Of a stretch of 34,841 bases of DNA, positions 10,086 to 16,226 are shown in pieces. Under the pieces are notes generated by a model that was given only the letters and a program-made list of their open reading frames with translations, did not search any database and was not told the DNA's origin. How positions within the stretch are numbered: the stretch's first letter is position 1; every line of letters starts with the position of its first letter. The position numbers and the translations under genes were made by a program. Source of the DNA: Pseudoxanthomonas sp. (lineage in GTDB: Bacteria; Pseudomonadota; Gammaproteobacteria; Xanthomonadales; Xanthomonadaceae). Location of the stretch: positions 82,574-117,414 of the forward strand of contig JAGHZW010000088.1 in the NCBI GenBank assembly GCA_017745195.1, given 5' to 3'.

Positions 10086-11450
10086 ATGCCCAGATGCTGT
10101 TGGCTGGCACTCCTTATTTTCGCCATCCCCTCCTTTGATGCGGATGCCATCGATCGACTGGAAATCCGGGTCAATCGACTCCAGGGGGTACTCGACCTGG
10201 CCATCTCCTACTGTGGTGGCCAAGGCGAGTCCGTCGCACTTCAGAAGCTGCTCGAGTCTGCTGGATACAGAAGCGGCGACCCGCCCGGGGTGATGCTCCG
10301 CTTCTGCACGGTCGACATCGGCCAGAATGCCGTCGGCTATCCCGGTCGGCCATTGGCGTACAACACAGGGTGGTCGTCTCCCTGGCAACGCGTCCTCAAC
10401 GCCAGCGTTGCCAGTTCCGACATGGCCGAATTCCAGGACAGGATTGCCGGCGCATTCACCTTTCCCGAGCAGCAGGCGATCGTGGATGGCCTGCGCTACA
10501 TGGAGCCGATATACGAGCGGCTGGTCGAAACCGCCATCGGCAGTCGCGGCAAGGAAATGGCTGCCTCGGTTTCCGCGCACATGGACAGGAAGAACGTCCC
10601 AGGCTTGATGCGGTCCATCAGCAACCTGTACGCGACACCCTGGCCGGACGACATGCCACTGTGGATCGGACTGTCCCCGATACCTCCCGGGTCCGGAGGA
10701 TTCTCGGCGACAGCGAACGGGAATGTCGTCCGGAGCTTCATGCCCGTGGATTTCGACAGACCAGACGTCTATGCCAGCGTGATCGCACATGAGTTTTGCC
10801 ATGTCCTGTACTCGAACATGCCGCTGGATCGGATCGAAGCAATCCAGCATGCATTCTCGGCCTCGGCGTCGCCGAATCGACGCCTGGCCGAAATATGGAT
10901 GAACGAGGCGCTGGCAACCGCTGCGGGAAACGGCTGGGTCTATCGAGAGCTGACAGGCTCCGAAGACAAGGAGGCCTGGTACGACGATCCGGTTATCGAT
11001 CCGTATGCGAAGGCGATAGCGCCCGTTGTCTATCGCGCCTTGGATTCCGGAAAGGCACTGGATGCTTCAATGGCGGCGCAGTTCATTGTGGAATTCGATC
11101 GAATCCATCCTGACGCATTGAGAAATCCGGCAGTCCTGCTGCCCCATGCGACCATCGTCTCCAATACGGACGCCACTTCGTTGGCATCCATGCGATCGAC
11201 TTTCGGGCAACAGATCGGCATCCGGCGTCTGGATGCCTTGGCACCGGACGTCGCCGGGAACGCGGAATTGGCGCCGGCCGTCATTCACGTCGACATTTCA
11301 GAGACAGATGGCGTTGAGATGAAATGGAGACGAAACCTGCGTGCGGATGGACGGATCGATTTCTCGATCCGGCTCCGCAGCCCGGCCGCATTCGGCGGTG
11401 CACTCGCGGCACTGATCACGCGCATCCGCGACAACGAATGGCCCGAGTAG
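10086..11450 (+). CDS. secreted HExxH metallopeptidase-like protein (unrecognised family)
   Basis: A 454-residue protein beginning at the ATG at 10086, chosen because it opens a signal peptide (MPRCCWLALLIFAIPSFDADA). The frame stays open far upstream, but only as the shadow of the preceding gene. Residues 235-239 are H-E-F-C-H, the zinc-binding HExxH motif. They are followed 35 residues later by E274 in M-N-E-A-L-A, the position and NEALA context expected for the third ligand of gluzincin peptidases. The N-terminal 230 residues (YCGGQGES, CTVDIGQNAVGYPG, GLRYMEPIYERL) and the C-terminal 150 match no family I recognise. The gene has noticeably lower GC and uses codons such as AGA, TTG and AAT that are rare in neighbouring genes, suggesting acquisition. 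It converges with the beta-barrel gene, with 137 bases between them. A protease role is inferred from the motif only. Confidence 0.75.
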   Translation: MPRCCWLALLIFAIPSFDADAIDRLEIRVNRLQGVLDLAISYCGGQGESVALQKLLESAGYRSGDPPGVMLRFCTVDIGQNAVGYPGRPLAYNTGWSSPWQRVLNASVASSDMAEFQDRIAGAFTFPEQQAIVDGLRYMEPIYERLVETAIGSRGKEMAASVSAHMDRKNVPGLMRSISNLYATPWPDDMPLWIGLSPIPPGSGGFSATANGNVVRSFMPVDFDRPDVYASVIAHEFCHVLYSNMPLDRIEAIQHAFSASASPNRRLAEIWMNEALATAAGNGWVYRELTGSEDKEAWYDDPVIDPYAKAIAPVVYRALDSGKALDASMAAQFIVEFDRIHPDALRNPAVLLPHATIVSNTDATSLASMRSTFGQQIGIRRLDALAPDVAGNAELAPAVIHVDISETDGVEMKWRRNLRADGRIDFSIRLRSPAAFGGALAALITRIRDNEWPE

Positions 11451-11587: not shown

Positions 11588-12976
11588 CTAGAACGTGATC
11601 GGAACGCGCGTGGTGAAGGTCAGGTCCGGCGTGTCGCGGGTCACGCCCGCACCCAGCGCGACGTTCAACGACACCTTGTCGTTGAACCGATAGGTGCCAC
11701 CCAGCAGCAGCGTACCCAGCGTCGTGCGCACCGAGCCGGGCACGTCCTCGCCGTTCTGCGTGGTCTTGCCGACCATGCTCTGGTCGTAGCCCAGGCTGAT
11801 GGAGGCCTTCTCGTTCAGGGCCAGGCCCAGGCCGAGGTTGAAGCCCCAGATGTCGCCCGCCTTCACGTCGCCGAGCGGTTCCTCCTGCCCGCCGAGCACG
11901 GTCCGCGAGACGTTCTTGCGCTCGAAGTTGTACAGGTAACTGAAGCTGCCGAAGAATACGACCGGGTCGGAGGGATACAGCCAGGTGACGCCCGGCTGCA
12001 GCGCATTGAAGCCGCTGCCCATCGGCAGTTCCAGCGGCAGGCCGGTGCCGGTCGCGTTGGCCACGCAACGGGTCACGCAATCGGTGACCACCTCGAAGAT
12101 GTCGGTTCCGGTCCGGCTTTTGTAGCGCAGCCATCCCACGTAGAACGCCTTGTCCGGGCCACCGCGGTTGAACTGGTAGCGCGCGGTCATCTCGACGTCG
12201 CCCAGGCCGCGTCCATCGGCGTTGAACACACGGTCAAACGCCGAACCGGTGAAGATCTCGCGGCTGACCGTATCGCCGCTGGCGTAGCCGTAGGGCACCT
12301 TGAGTTCCAGTTCGGCGCGGTTGCTCAGTCCGTAACGACCGGTCAGAGTGGCGACCGCGGTAGTCGTCTTGACCTGGCGCACGTCGATCAGCCCGATCAG
12401 GATCGCCGGGATGACGGTGTAGCCGACCAGCACGACGCGGTCGTTGGCGGTGTAGCCATACTGGAGGGAGGGTTCCAGCACGAACTTGCCCGCCGGCGTG
12501 AGCGCGCCGGGCTGGTCGAAAATCTGCGCCACTTCCGGGGGACGCGACTGCGAGCCGGGCGCCTGGCCCACGGGCTCGGGCTCTGCGGTCGACGCGGACG
12601 GCTGCGGTGGCGCCTGCGCGACCTGCTCCGCACGCGGGCTCTCCTGCGGCTGCGCGTGGGCCACGCCCAGGCTCAGCGACGGCACCAGCGCCGGCACGGG
12701 CGCACCGCGCGCGCGCGCGTTGGCCAGTATTTCCTCGTTCAAGGCGGCCTGCAGTTGCGCCAGGCCCTGGGTCTGTTCGCCCAGGTCACGGCGCAGCTCG
12801 TCGATTCTCTGGGTCTGCCGGTTGATCTGGCGCTGCAGCGCATCGAGCCGGGTTTCCGGCGTACTCGCGGCGGCGTCCGGCGCGGCATCCTGCGCCCGGA
12901 CCTGGCCGCAGGCGAACAGCCCCACCACGACCGCCAGGGTCAGCGGCGTGGCGGCATCGGGCGACTTCCGTTTCAT
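11588..12976 (-). CDS. outer-membrane beta-barrel protein with N-terminal coiled coil (FapF-like architecture)
   Basis: A 462-residue exported protein starting at the ATG at 12976 behind AAGGAG. Layout: signal peptide (to about residue 28), a heptad coiled coil at about 40-85 (RLDALQRQINRQTQRIDELR and the following heptads), a Pro/Ala/Gln-rich linker to about 145, a short IFDQPGALTP plug-like segment, then about 310 residues of alternating amphipathic strands ending in the aromatic ...TTRVPITF. A terminal phenylalanine is the usual outer-membrane barrel signal. Strand pairs such as KFVLEPSLQYGYTANDRVVLV resemble the phenol_MetA_deg/transporter-type barrels. The combination of coiled coil, linker, plug and barrel is that of FapF, the pore exporting Pseudomonas Fap amyloid. 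As the last gene after a C39 peptidase, it is the likely exporter of this locus. FapF homology is inferred from architecture, not alignment. Confidence 0.8.
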   Translation of the reverse strand: MKRKSPDAATPLTLAVVVGLFACGQVRAQDAAPDAAASTPETRLDALQRQINRQTQRIDELRRDLGEQTQGLAQLQAALNEEILANARARGAPVPALVPSLSLGVAHAQPQESPRAEQVAQAPPQPSASTAEPEPVGQAPGSQSRPPEVAQIFDQPGALTPAGKFVLEPSLQYGYTANDRVVLVGYTVIPAILIGLIDVRQVKTTTAVATLTGRYGLSNRAELELKVPYGYASGDTVSREIFTGSAFDRVFNADGRGLGDVEMTARYQFNRGGPDKAFYVGWLRYKSRTGTDIFEVVTDCVTRCVANATGTGLPLELPMGSGFNALQPGVTWLYPSDPVVFFGSFSYLYNFERKNVSRTVLGGQEEPLGDVKAGDIWGFNLGLGLALNEKASISLGYDQSMVGKTTQNGEDVPGSVRTTLGTLLLGGTYRFNDKVSLNVALGAGVTRDTPDLTFTTRVPITF

Positions 12977-13017: not shown

Positions 13018-13527
13018 TCAGGGCGAACCGGGCATGCGCGTCAACACGTCGCCAAGCGCGCCGTAGGAATTGATCGCCTGGAACACGCCCAACGCGCCGT
13101 TGCCCACCTCGACGTTGGTGACCGTGCGGATGTTCTGGTTGTCGAGCGAGTTCTGTATCGCCACGCCACCGGCCACCCGGGCCGGATCGAAGTGATTGTG
13201 TTCACCCACCTGGACCACGATGCCCTTGTTGAAATCGGCCAGCGCCTGCGCCTGTCCGGGATCGATATCCGCCACGTCGGGCAGCCGCACCGACACGCGG
13301 GCGACGAGCACGTCGTTGACGTAGACGACGCGCTCGATGCCGAACGAGAGCATCTGTCCGGATGGCGTCTGGAAACCGCCGCGCATCGCGTCCAGGCGCG
13401 CGGGATCGATCGGTTTCCACTCCCCGCCCAGCGGAATGGAACCGCCGTCCGCAGCCTGCGCCTGCAGCGACGCGGCCGCGCATGCGACCAGCGATGCCAG
13501 CAGCAGCCAGCGGCGGGTGCGGTCCAT
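13018..13527 (-). CDS. secreted protein with double-glycine motif, C39-locus component
   Basis: A 169-residue exported protein beginning at the ATG at 13527, four bases after the C39 peptidase stop. The signal peptide is MDRTRRWLLLASLVACAAASLQAQA. A double-glycine motif, DPARLDAMRGG, ends at G51; hydrophobic residues stand at -12 (I40), -7 (L45) and -4 (M48), exactly as in C39-processed leader peptides. After it comes LSFGIERVVYVNDVLVARVSV, a conserved-looking beta segment, then acidic and Asn-rich sequence with AIQNSLDNQNIRTVTNVEV, which resembles the strand motifs of the two other secreted proteins in the locus. Processing would leave a 118-residue mature protein. The role may be a chaperone, minor subunit or nucleator (position comparable to fapE); I cannot assign a family. 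Confidence 0.75.
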   Translation of the reverse strand: MDRTRRWLLLASLVACAAASLQAQAADGGSIPLGGEWKPIDPARLDAMRGGFQTPSGQMLSFGIERVVYVNDVLVARVSVRLPDVADIDPGQAQALADFNKGIVVQVGEHNHFDPARVAGGVAIQNSLDNQNIRTVTNVEVGNGALGVFQAINSYGALGDVLTRMPGSP

Positions 13528-13531
13528 GGCC

Positions 13532-14230
13532 TCAGATATCCCGGGGACCGCGCCTGGGCGCGGTGATGTTGTACAGCCCGTCGCGCTGGATGCCCATGTC
13601 GAGCGGTGCCGGAGGCGCGGTGCGCCAGTCCTCGGGACTATTGAAGCTGGCCTGCTCGCGCCGGTTGTGCACCACGAACAGCACCCGGTTGTCCCACAGC
13701 GCCTCGAAGCGCGAACGCGGCATCGCACGCGTGCCCCGCGCCGGATCGCCCAGCAGCACGCGGCCGTTGCGCAAGCCCTTGATCACCACGAAGTGCCGGT
13801 AGCCGCGGTCGTTCAGCAGCACGATGGCCGGAACGCCTTCCGCTTCCAGCTTCTCCAGCGGCAGTTCGAAACCGTCCGCCTGGAACCCCTTCGAATCCAG
13901 GTAGCGGCGCATGTCCAGCAGCGAGAATCCCTCCTTGCGGATCTTCGCCTGGTCGCCGTTCCGGTACATCTGCATGAAGACGTCGGTCTCGCTGACCGGA
14001 TGGCGGTACTGGTAGGTCAACAGCGTCGCCGTGGCCGCCGAACCGCAGCTGAAATCGTACTGCTGGGGAACCGTGGTCCGGAAGCGCGCCTCCTTGAGGC
14101 TGACCACGTGCACGGTGTAGCTGCCGCCGCCCTGCGGCACGCGGATGTCGGCCTTGGTGGCCCGCGCGCCATCCACGCACGCGAATGCGCACACCAACGC
14201 GCCCCACCATGCCAGGCGATCGACGTTCAT
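13532..14230 (-). CDS. stand-alone C39-family cysteine peptidase
   Basis: A 232-residue exported peptidase of the C39 (bacteriocin-processing) family without the ABC transporter parts. It starts at the ATG at 14230, overlapping the preceding gene's stop in an ATGA junction. A short signal peptide (LAWWGALVCAFACVDGARA) directs it to the periplasm. The catalytic set is visible: the oxyanion glutamine Q57 and nucleophile C62 in VPQQYDFSCGSAATATLL, H146 in DRGYRHFVVIKGL, and D162 in LLGDPARG. The EGFSLLDMRRYLDSKGFQADGF block is the usual C39 helix-strand element. The same arrangement, a secreted peptidase next to a coiled-coil barrel and repetitive subunits, is known for FapD in Pseudomonas. Its likely substrates are the flanking secreted proteins, which carry GG cleavage motifs. 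Confidence 0.9.
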   Translation of the reverse strand: MNVDRLAWWGALVCAFACVDGARATKADIRVPQGGGSYTVHVVSLKEARFRTTVPQQYDFSCGSAATATLLTYQYRHPVSETDVFMQMYRNGDQAKIRKEGFSLLDMRRYLDSKGFQADGFELPLEKLEAEGVPAIVLLNDRGYRHFVVIKGLRNGRVLLGDPARGTRAMPRSRFEALWDNRVLFVVHNRREQASFNSPEDWRTAPPAPLDMGIQRDGLYNITAPRRGPRDI

Positions 14231-14670
14231 TGGCCTGGATTGGCGAAGATAACCTGGATGCTCATGCCGTTCTGGATCAGCACGTTGCTTCCGCTGTTCT
14301 GGATGACCGTGTTGAGTCCGCTGGCATTGGCGAACGCGCCGTCGTTGATGGAGTTGGAACCGCTGACGACGTGGTCGGCCGTGTTGTCGTGGACGCTTCC
14401 GTCCACGGAGGTGTTGCTCTCGTTCGTGTCCTGGCCACCGCGCATGGCCGCCAACCGCCCGAGGTCGACCGGCGTGCCGCCGCCGAGGGTCGATGTGGAT
14501 GCCAGCAGCGGATGGGCGCGCGCGAGCGCGAGCAACTGCGGCGGCGCCGTGGCCGATGGCGTTGCCGGATCGACGGCGGACGACGGCGCCGCGAGCGCCG
14601 GATCGGCGGCGGCGAAGCACGCCAGCACCACCGTCGCGATGCAACGTGAAAGCGATCGGTACGAATGCAT
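14227..14670 (-). CDS. small secreted protein with double-glycine motif; candidate minor fibre subunit
   Basis: A 147-residue exported protein. The ATG at 14670 is fixed by a good AAGGAG site and by the signal peptide (MHSYRSLSRCIATVVLACFAAADPALA); an upstream in-frame extension runs through a hairpin and is not signal-like. After a Pro/Ala-rich propeptide comes PVDLGRLAAMRGG ending at G79, with V68, L73 and M76 at -12, -7 and -4, matching C39 leader rules. The remaining 68 residues are Asn/Ser/Gly-rich with no cysteine and end in IQNSGSNVLIQNGMSIQVIF. This aligns with the C-terminus of the large Gly-rich protein upstream (QNSG..LIQ.G....Q). A small subunit paired with a large one suggests a nucleator/major subunit relation. 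This is inference. Confidence 0.75.
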   Translation of the reverse strand: MHSYRSLSRCIATVVLACFAAADPALAAPSSAVDPATPSATAPPQLLALARAHPLLASTSTLGGGTPVDLGRLAAMRGGQDTNESNTSVDGSVHDNTADHVVSGSNSINDGAFANASGLNTVIQNSGSNVLIQNGMSIQVIFANPGQ

Positions 14671-14757
14671 GTCACACGCTCCTTCCCGGGCGCGTTCCGG
14701 TCGACACGGGCAGGGCGTCCTGCCGTGACGACGGGACGTTTCCTGCTCGTGCGGGAT

Positions 14758-14787
14758 GTGCATCGGGGTCTCCGGGCCCCGATGCAC
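14758..14787 (-). other. intercistronic hairpin after the Gly-rich subunit gene
   Basis: A perfect 11-base inverted repeat (14758-14768 and 14777-14787, arm GTGCATCGGGG) with an eight-base loop lies about 30 bases after the stop of the Gly-rich gene and before the next gene of the same strand. No U-run follows. It could act as a partial terminator or mRNA stabiliser, giving more of the first gene product than of those downstream. Confidence 0.6.
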
Positions 14788-14816
14788 GTCGGAACGCCTG
14801 TGGGCCCGTGGCTTGT

Positions 14817-16220
14817 CTACGGGCCTACGGTCAGGTTGGCCTGCACCGTGACGCCCTGCTGGATCAGCGAAGCGAAGCCGCTGTTCTGCGCGGTCACCAT
14901 GATGCCTGCCGCCGCCTGTCCAACACTGCTCATGCTGTTGGACATGTCGAAGCTGCCTGCGTTGTTGGCCACCGAGCCACCGGCGCCGGCCGCGCCGCCC
15001 GCACCACCGGTGCCGTCGCCACCGGTGTTGGTGCCACCAGTGCCTGCGCCACCAGTACCGGCCGCGGCAACACCATCGCCGCCCGCACCACCGGCACCAC
15101 CCGCTCCGCCTGCGCCGCCATCGGCGCCGTTGCCGGCGGTGGAGTCGCCATTGGACGCGGTGGACGTGGCACTGCCATTGGTGGCGTCGCCATTGGTCGC
15201 GGCACCGCCATCACCACCCGTGCCCGCGGTCGCGGTCAGGCTGCCACCGGCACCACCGGTGCCCGTGCCGGCACCACCGGTGCCGCTGCCGTCGCCCGCG
15301 GTGCTCGTGCCGGCACCGCCCGTGCCGGTGCCATCGCCCGCGGTACCCGCGCCACCGGTCGAACTGCTGGCACCACCGGTTGCGCTTGCGCCGCCGGACG
15401 TGCCGTTGCCGGCGGTTGCAGATCCTGCACCACCGGTGGCGTCGCCGGCGCCGCGGTCGCGCGCGCGGCCGCCGTTGGCACTGGCGTTGCCGCCGCTTGC
15501 ACCGTTGTCCTGCGCAGCCGTGGCGCCGCCCACCGAGCCGCTGAGGCCACCAAGTGCCCCACTCGCGCCCCAGCCATCGCCGCCATCGGCACCGGCGTCG
15601 CCACCGTTGCCGCTGCCACCGGCGCCACTGCCGTTGCCGTCGGCACCATTGGCGCCGCGGTTGCGATTGGCATCGCCGCCGCTGCCGCCTCTTCCTGCGT
15701 ACGCATCAGCGACCCAGGCGTCGCCGACGCTGGTCGGTCCGGCCTGCACATCGCCGTTGTTCGCAGTACCGCCACTGCCACCACTGCCACCGCTACCGCC
15801 GCTGGCCCCCCTGGCGCCGGCACCACCCCTGCCGTCACCGCCATCGCCGTCGCCGCCCTTGCCATTGGCGCCGAGGGCCAGGCCGCCGTAACCGGCGCCG
15901 CCCTTGCCGCCGTTGCCGCCATCGGCACTGCCGTTGTTGGTCGCGACGTTGCCGATGCCATACACGCTCAGTCCCGACACGCTTCCTTCAAGCCGGGTCG
16001 TCGCCACGGCCGAGCTGCTGTTGAAGGAGTTCGAGAACGTGGCCGTCGCCGTACCGCCATTGTTGGCCGCCGCCGTACCCTGGCCGTCCGCGTACGCGCT
16101 GTAGTCCTCGCTCGATGCTGGCGATTCCTCCTCGGGAGGACTTTCTTGTGCGAAGACCTGCCCCGACAGGCCCAGTCCAAGTACCACGGCTGATGCAATC
16201 AAAGTCTTGTTGATGCGCAT
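14817..16220 (-). CDS. Gly/Ala/Asn-rich secreted repeat protein; candidate major fibre/adhesin subunit
   Basis: A 467-residue exported protein. The ATG at 16220 is chosen because AGGAGG lies six bases upstream; a GTG at 16226 would fall inside that ribosome site. The signal peptide is MRINKTLIASAVVLGLGLSGQVFA, followed by an acidic Pro/Glu/Ser stretch. Residues of about 40-85 form a more ordered segment (FSNSFNSSSAVATTRLEGSV, SGLSVYGIGNVATNN). The next roughly 320 residues are low complexity, mostly Gly with Ala, Thr, Asn, Ser and Asp, in GGxG-type repeats. A final ordered segment ends in AQNSGFASLIQQGVTVQANL. No cysteine is seen, unlike the CxC of Pseudomonas FapC. It heads the five-gene C39/barrel locus and is probably its main exported product: a surface fibre, functional amyloid or adhesin. 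Some databases label similar proteins as heme utilisation or adhesion proteins without evidence. Confidence 0.8.
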   Translation of the reverse strand: MRINKTLIASAVVLGLGLSGQVFAQESPPEEESPASSEDYSAYADGQGTAAANNGGTATATFSNSFNSSSAVATTRLEGSVSGLSVYGIGNVATNNGSADGGNGGKGGAGYGGLALGANGKGGDGDGGDGRGGAGARGASGGSGGSGGSGGTANNGDVQAGPTSVGDAWVADAYAGRGGSGGDANRNRGANGADGNGSGAGGSGNGGDAGADGGDGWGASGALGGLSGSVGGATAAQDNGASGGNASANGGRARDRGAGDATGGAGSATAGNGTSGGASATGGASSSTGGAGTAGDGTGTGGAGTSTAGDGSGTGGAGTGTGGAGGSLTATAGTGGDGGAATNGDATNGSATSTASNGDSTAGNGADGGAGGAGGAGGAGGDGVAAAGTGGAGTGGTNTGGDGTGGAGGAAGAGGSVANNAGSFDMSNSMSSVGQAAAGIMVTAQNSGFASLIQQGVTVQANLTVGP

Positions 16221-16226
16221 GTCCAC

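Follow-up and report, generated by a model that had tools for sequence, protein, structure and literature searches.

A Fap-related locus of Pseudoxanthomonas with canonical double-glycine motifs in two predicted secreted proteins next to a stand-alone C39 peptidase

What does a C39 peptidase cut when it is encoded apart from any ABC transporter, among genes for predicted secreted proteins? This question is raised by five consecutive minus-strand genes found in a 34,841-nucleotide stretch of Pseudoxanthomonas sp. DNA (hereafter the window), which encode a Gly-rich 469-aa protein, a 147-aa protein (A147), the peptidase, a 169-aa protein (B169) and a 462-aa barrel. The original prediction, made from the letters alone, was that A147 and B169 carry double-glycine leaders of the bacteriocin type behind Sec signals, and would be matured in two steps.

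A similar question has been asked of FapD, on whose activity amyloid export in Pseudomonas depends: the protein carries a Sec signal, and its C38A substitution abolishes FapC secretion (Rouse et al. 2017, PMC5557850). The sections of that paper dealing with FapD leave its target unclear, the Fap proteins being described as devoid of a canonical C39 sequence; they point out GG and GA motifs, found in FapE and close to the FapF linker, and report FapE as the only Fap protein with no peptides from its first ~70 residues in whole-cell mass spectrometry. In its passage on FapD, a 2018 review still gives the substrate as undetermined, and mentions fapD-fapF pairs in five further phyla (PMC6173800). 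More recently, FapC was presented as the FapD target in the relevant part of a 2023 paper (PMC10638192), while in 2025 the target was said to be thought to include the FapE N-terminus, in a passage that gives no site (PMC12822426). Suspicion of FapE is hence already in print; in the open-access papers searched (reference lists and supplements aside), neither a named cleavage site in FapE, nor a named GG leader in a Fap-like locus, nor a canonical double-glycine member of the family was encountered. The locus described here offers canonical sites in two proteins, of which the B169 site aligns with a conserved element of Pseudomonas FapE, and turns the substrate question into a single-residue experiment.

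Gene content and kinship with the Fap system

The central gene (13532..14230, minus strand), whose start overlaps the A147 stop through ATGA, encodes the 232-aa peptidase, the only one of the five products to pass a Pfam cut-off (Peptidase_C39, PF03412, 73.7 bits against a cut-off of 22, E 1.6e-20). As originally noted, no ABC transporter is fused to it; its N-terminus is, by eye, of the Sec type. Its nearest NCBIfam relative is FapD (NF058616, 139.4 bits, E 1e-40), with a score below the equivalog cut-off of 330 bits that makes it a relative and not an equivalog, and FilB is also matched under cut-off (E 2.7e-35). An alignment of 28 homologues from three groups shows no change at Q56, C62, H146 and D162, which correspond to the oxyanion Gln and the catalytic Cys, His and Asp of C39 enzymes, respectively. 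Among the best Foldseek matches of the structure predicted for it (mean pLDDT 81, above 90 in the core) are ComA, PCAT1 and 6mpz; the last, a double-glycine protease whose structure was determined with a leader peptide, also comes first in a sequence search. Foldseek scores papain-like and contact-dependent-inhibition toxin domains just as highly (ranks 1 and 3), so the fold alone is no proof of leader specificity. The fold, the catalytic residues and the leader spacing discussed below are shared with PCAT1, ComA and 6mpz, whereas the enzyme of the window is without an ABC or transmembrane part; its predicted place of action is the periplasm, and its predicted substrates are exported by Sec.

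Downstream of the peptidase gene, B169 (13018..13527, minus strand) occupies the fapE place and is followed by an outer-membrane beta-barrel with an N-terminal coiled-coil-like region (11588..12976, minus strand). The barrel is nearest to FapF (NCBIfam NF058560, 146 bits, E 1.3e-42, positions 22-420 of 420), while falling short of the 700-bit equivalog cut-off, and also matches FilC under cut-off (NCBIfam, E 3.9e-8). Convergent with the barrel gene, the plus strand encodes at 10086-11450 a protein of 454 aa whose N-terminus is signal-like and which carries an HEFCH metallopeptidase-like motif. On its own, B169 has no match to the FapE model (NCBIfam NF058559, E up to 1), and the one FapA match among the five products, likewise of B169, is not a clear one (E 0.015); the FapB and FapC models of NCBIfam match none of the five. 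Fap relatives are found here in the order D, E, F, to be read beside the published criterion that a Fap operon should hold four or more fap homologues, as worded in the corresponding passage of the 2018 review (PMC6173800).

Since the peptidase is nearest FapD and FilB and the barrel nearest FapF and FilC, the locus reads as Fap-like and not as a bacteriocin cluster. By homology, it is a relative of the Pseudomonas functional-amyloid (Fap) export system, in which the peptidase is related to FapD, the barrel to FapF and, as detailed below, B169 to FapE. It shares with fapABCDEF a stand-alone Sec-type C39 peptidase, a gene at the FapE position and a FapF-like pore, in the same order. It differs in that its presumed major subunit is Gly-rich with one terminal repeat, that the A147 gene adjoins the peptidase gene, and that its products score under every Fap equivalog cut-off. 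Likeness to Fil (FilA-F), a putative pilus system of Acinetobacter, comes from models only, the peptidase resembling FilB and the barrel FilC with scores under the cut-offs, whereas A147, B169 and the Gly-rich protein are without a Fil model match.

The double-glycine motif and its conservation

In A147 (14227..14670, minus strand), a Sec-type signal and a variable propeptide precede the motif VDLGRLAAMRGG, which spans residues 68-79 (14434..14469, minus strand) and leaves 68 residues after the predicted recognition and cleavage site. In B169, IDPARLDAMRGG spans residues 40-51 (13375..13410, minus strand), behind a propeptide of ~25 residues (signal end judged by eye), and leaves 118. The motifs and their place downstream of a Sec signal in both proteins were thus correctly called by the original prediction; the span of 13375-14460 given for them cuts through both genes. 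Hydrophobic residues at -12, -7 and -4 followed by GG make up the spacing of C39 leaders. When this is written as a strict pattern (V/I/L/M/F/W/Y at -12, -7 and -4, plus GG), A147 and B169 have one match each, and the peptidase, the barrel and the Gly-rich protein, its 42 GG pairs notwithstanding, have none.

At least one match also occurs in 308 of 20000 composition-preserving shuffles of A147 and in 1227 of 20000 of B169, so the pattern match alone is suggestive only, and these figures are not to be multiplied as independent because the two proteins look paralogous. They are probably paralogues indeed, as a profile comparison relates them at 91.9% (E 7e-7), and treating the motifs as two independent chance events was given up on this ground. 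With a mean pLDDT of 55, the AlphaFold model of B169 is of low confidence; it gives no information about the leader and was set aside.

Conservation is the test that counts here, and was examined in a C39 search over 299 genomes of the order, of which 86 matched. In 54 of them (clade 1), the best match is a close orthologue with 55-100% identity, and the surroundings of the 53 clade-1 loci besides the window were fetched, 12 kb each (two, L036 and L086, are shorter); these rows are kin, and some are near-copies, such as L036 and L038. Counting AVILMFWY as hydrophobic, the 54 aligned A147 rows have Leu at -7 and Gly at -2 without exception, Gly at -1 in 53 (Ser in L081), and a hydrophobic residue at -4 in 46 and at -12 in 45. 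The 53 B169 rows are stricter: Leu at -7, Arg at -3, Gly at -2, Gly at -1 and a hydrophobic residue at -12 are each found in 53/53, and -4 is hydrophobic in 48/53. The alignment that had been proposed as a check thereby bears out the pattern within the clade, less strictly at -4 and -12 than at -7 and GG, and the propeptide around both motifs is mostly variable. Both families show the features taken to define a C39 double-glycine leader, namely hydrophobic residues at -12, -7 and -4, GG, GA or GS at -2/-1, and conservation in orthologues. Of note, the relatives of B169 in L049, L055, L060, L074 and L084 are longer than the protein of the window, and B169 matches are split in several genomes, as if a stretch had been inserted before the terminal repeat.

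Gene order follows the same lines. A147 lies directly upstream of the peptidase in all 54 clade-1 rows, and B169 and the barrel lie downstream in 53, the exception (L086) being cut off. An A147 profile finds the family in 54 of the 299 genomes, exactly those with a clade-1 peptidase, and always beside it; no copy away from the peptidase was reported among the best candidates (up to 17 per genome) that were scored in these 299 genomes. The B169 profile recovers the same 54 genomes and a single weak match in another one, G230 (E 7e-4), which covers positions 5-35, i.e., the motif stretch only, and adjoins the more distant peptidase of that genome.

Correspondence with FapE and the residue at -1

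Although B169 alone escapes the FapE model, a profile-profile comparison relates 20 clade-1 B169 sequences to 15 of FapE (from Pseudomonas, Halomonas, Marinobacterium and others) with a probability of 94.9% (E 4.5e-8) over 61 columns. These columns are N-terminal, comprising the signal region and the motif, with none reported beyond, and they put the two motifs in register, RLDAMRGGF of B169 falling on ELATLRGRY of FapE. Within the FapE alignment of 15 sequences, L33, R37, G38 and R39 are invariant, and both B169 and FapE also conserve an aromatic residue at +1 and the residues next to it. The B169 leader would then correspond by homology to a conserved L..[LM]RG[R/K] element in the FapE of Fap proper, and because of this correspondence FapE appears as the likeliest substrate of FapD generally. 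In a FapE of P. fluorescens (L196), the RGR element ends at residue 39; trypsin should itself cut there, at R37 and R39, and tryptic data therefore cannot place the FapE bond.

The motif was followed in 180 peptidase loci: the 54 of clade 1, 47 others from genomes of the order (20 + 30 minus 3 duplicates) and 79 from a scan of named genomes (the best 80 of 517 were kept and 79 used). A profile of the region after the motif finds the FapE-position gene in 166 of the 180 loci, all with the motif, and a pattern search adds 11, giving 177 motif loci, Pseudomonas and Halomonas included; the remaining three are cut off or broken. In these 177 genes, -2 is always Gly and -3 is Arg, except for Ser in L091 and L094, and it should be borne in mind that the position-reading pattern itself demands some of these letters, which the profile-anchored listing does not. 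Residue -1 is Gly in 66, Arg in 92 and Lys in 19. The Gly rows are 53 of clade 1 and 13 of a sister clade (L123-L135), and Fap proper has Arg or Lys, so that GG at -2/-1 in the window stands against GR or GK there. The two states are separated by one change on a FastTree peptidase tree, which is quick and unrooted and has few strongly supported branches (33 of 172). Differences between the peptidases of the Gly and Arg/Lys groups are visible in the alignment and were considered as candidate C39 specificity residues; this comparison was dropped, since groups parted by one tree change offer no independent test. The contrast is also seen within the window's own genome, where a different contig (G000:C213:30000-44000, L087) carries a further Fap operon, of more typical make-up. 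This operon matches FapA, FapB, FapC, FapE and FapD, all under cut-offs, and has a FapE that reads MRGR where B169 has MRGG.

The A147 side is more variable in the sister clade. There, the gene before the peptidase is A147-like with a related end, mostly VIQNSGNNVIIQN-like. By eye, GG is present in only one of the 13 A147 relatives (L128) and a clear motif is missing in three (L123, L133 and L134). The other leaders read LxxxR[G/A]x, the forms seen in the clade being LGHQRGT, LGNQRGM, LNHSRGR, LEDQRAM, LDHERAK, LGDNRAK, LDALRGM, LESTRGQ and LDTQRAK. As the sister-clade leaders mostly take this shape, the stable core would be L(-7)..R(-3)-[G/A](-2), that is, Leu, Arg and a small residue, with GG as the clade-1 form of the motif and not a universal element. 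Low-complexity genes with similar ends occur in sister-clade loci, most of which encode a low-complexity Gly-, Asn- or Ser-rich protein upstream, and the FapE-position protein carries RGG. Further afield, a search for GG leaders among the genes that precede the peptidase gene covered the window and L087-L215 (with a filter for amyloid-like ends); in Fap proper it gave scattered matches, mostly in Gly-rich stretches, at no conserved place.

Predicted maturation, alternatives and the major subunit

The observed order of the genes, their homology, the conservation of the motif, the intact catalytic residues and the strict co-occurrence lead us to infer a Fap-related amyloid export operon in which Sec export is followed by periplasmic C39 cleavage of A147 and B169 after GG, a reading that we consider likely. 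All five products, from their N-termini as judged by eye, would reach the periplasm through Sec. There, the stand-alone peptidase would recognise a leader element made of a hydrophobic residue at -12, Leu at -7, a mostly hydrophobic -4, Arg, Ser or Thr at -3, and GG, and would cut after GG, giving mature chains of ~68 (A147) and ~118 residues (B169). These may then cross the FapF-like pore and serve to nucleate, cap or anchor the fibre. The major Gly-rich subunit, which has no leader, would stay unprocessed. For A147, the predicted mature chain of 68 residues carries a VIQNSGxNVLIQN motif, and a part in the fibre is suggested by this motif and by the place of the gene; as a FapC homologue it was rejected, the profile comparison giving no significant match (0.3%) and the likeness of its repeat to Fap repeats being by eye only. 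If correct, the scheme would amount to a periplasmic double-glycine pathway separate from ABC exporters. Of what was originally predicted, the C39 chemistry remains the best reading, given the conserved pattern and the intact catalytic residues; the bacteriocin framing does not hold for a Fap-like locus.

The main rival, which we regard as unlikely, is that the motif only docks. A FapD-type C39 protein would then act as a secretion chaperone that binds L..[hydrophobic]RG[x], in the manner of the degenerate C39-like domains found in certain type 1 systems, and would cut nothing, or cut elsewhere, e.g., in FapF. Cleavage of FapF has been proposed, in the part of the 2017 paper concerned with it (PMC5557850), and the position following the conserved Gly or Ala varies freely across the family (G, R, K, M, T or Q), as expected if binding and not P1 chemistry were selected. 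However, the catalytic Q, C, H and D are invariant in the 28 homologues, secretion is lost in FapD C38A as described in the same source (PMC5557850), the strict motif is absent from the FapF-like barrel of the window, and GG is kept in 106 of the 107 A147 and B169 rows of its clade.

What does weigh against a strict GG rule is that -1 of FapE is Arg or Lys outside clade 1 and its sister, in addition to the non-hydrophobic residues found at -4 in 8/54 A147 and 5/53 B169 rows and at -12 in 9/54 A147 rows. C39 enzymes cut at GG and sometimes at GA, according to the relevant lines of Rouse et al. (PMC5557850); with Arg or Lys at -1 in Fap proper, either the site is read differently there, or the motif there only docks. 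A broader proposal, which we put forward tentatively and with clearly less conviction than periplasmic cleavage in the window, is that one periplasmic C39 step is common to all Fap-type systems, acting at L..[LMIV]R[G/A]-x of FapE and, where there is one, of the A147-type partner. FapD-type enzymes would then form a C39 class needing not Gly-Gly but one small residue and then an unconstrained one (Gly in clade 1, Arg or Lys in Pseudomonas), and the FapE bond next to RGR would be the FapD target.

A second alternative holds that the GG motif is conserved for folding or export, for instance as a pore-targeting signal or as a turn with which the mature domain begins, and has nothing to do with the peptidase. 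Conservation does run past the presumed bond, into the +1 aromatic residue and its followers in B169 and FapE, as such a role would have it. Yet the pattern and spacing fit C39 leaders in two proteins whose genes flank that of the peptidase, A147 tracks the clade-1 enzyme in 54/54 genomes with no stray copy reported among the candidates scored, and the type of residue at -1 changes once on the C39 tree, which leaves this alternative rather improbable. Least credible of all is the view that the C39 peptidase matures A147 and B169 into bacteriocins or microcins, for which the adjoining short proteins with GG leaders would speak, and which was rejected on gene content: the N-termini are of the Sec type, the peptidase has no ABC transporter, FapE- and FapF-type genes follow it in 53/54 clade-1 rows, and the short proteins have VIQNSG repeats instead of toxin-like cores.

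The probable major fibre subunit is the Gly-rich protein encoded first in the series (14817..16226, minus strand), with a GTG start, a Sec-type N-terminus and the C-terminus AQNSGFASLIQQGVTVQANL. A search with a C-terminal pattern finds a similar gene upstream in 52 of the 54 clade-1 rows, and with this same pattern none in L039 and L046. A scan of sigma-70 promoters and terminators gave nothing above chance. The intergenic stretch between the Gly-rich and A147 genes (14671..14816, minus strand) holds an 11-bp perfect GC-rich stem. Of 52 clade-1 rows, 42 have a perfect stem of at least 9 bp within 140 bases past the stop of the Gly-rich gene, mostly with different letters, whereas letter shuffles yield one in 3 of 260 cases; the stem is perhaps an mRNA stabiliser or an attenuator that sets the dosage of the major subunit.
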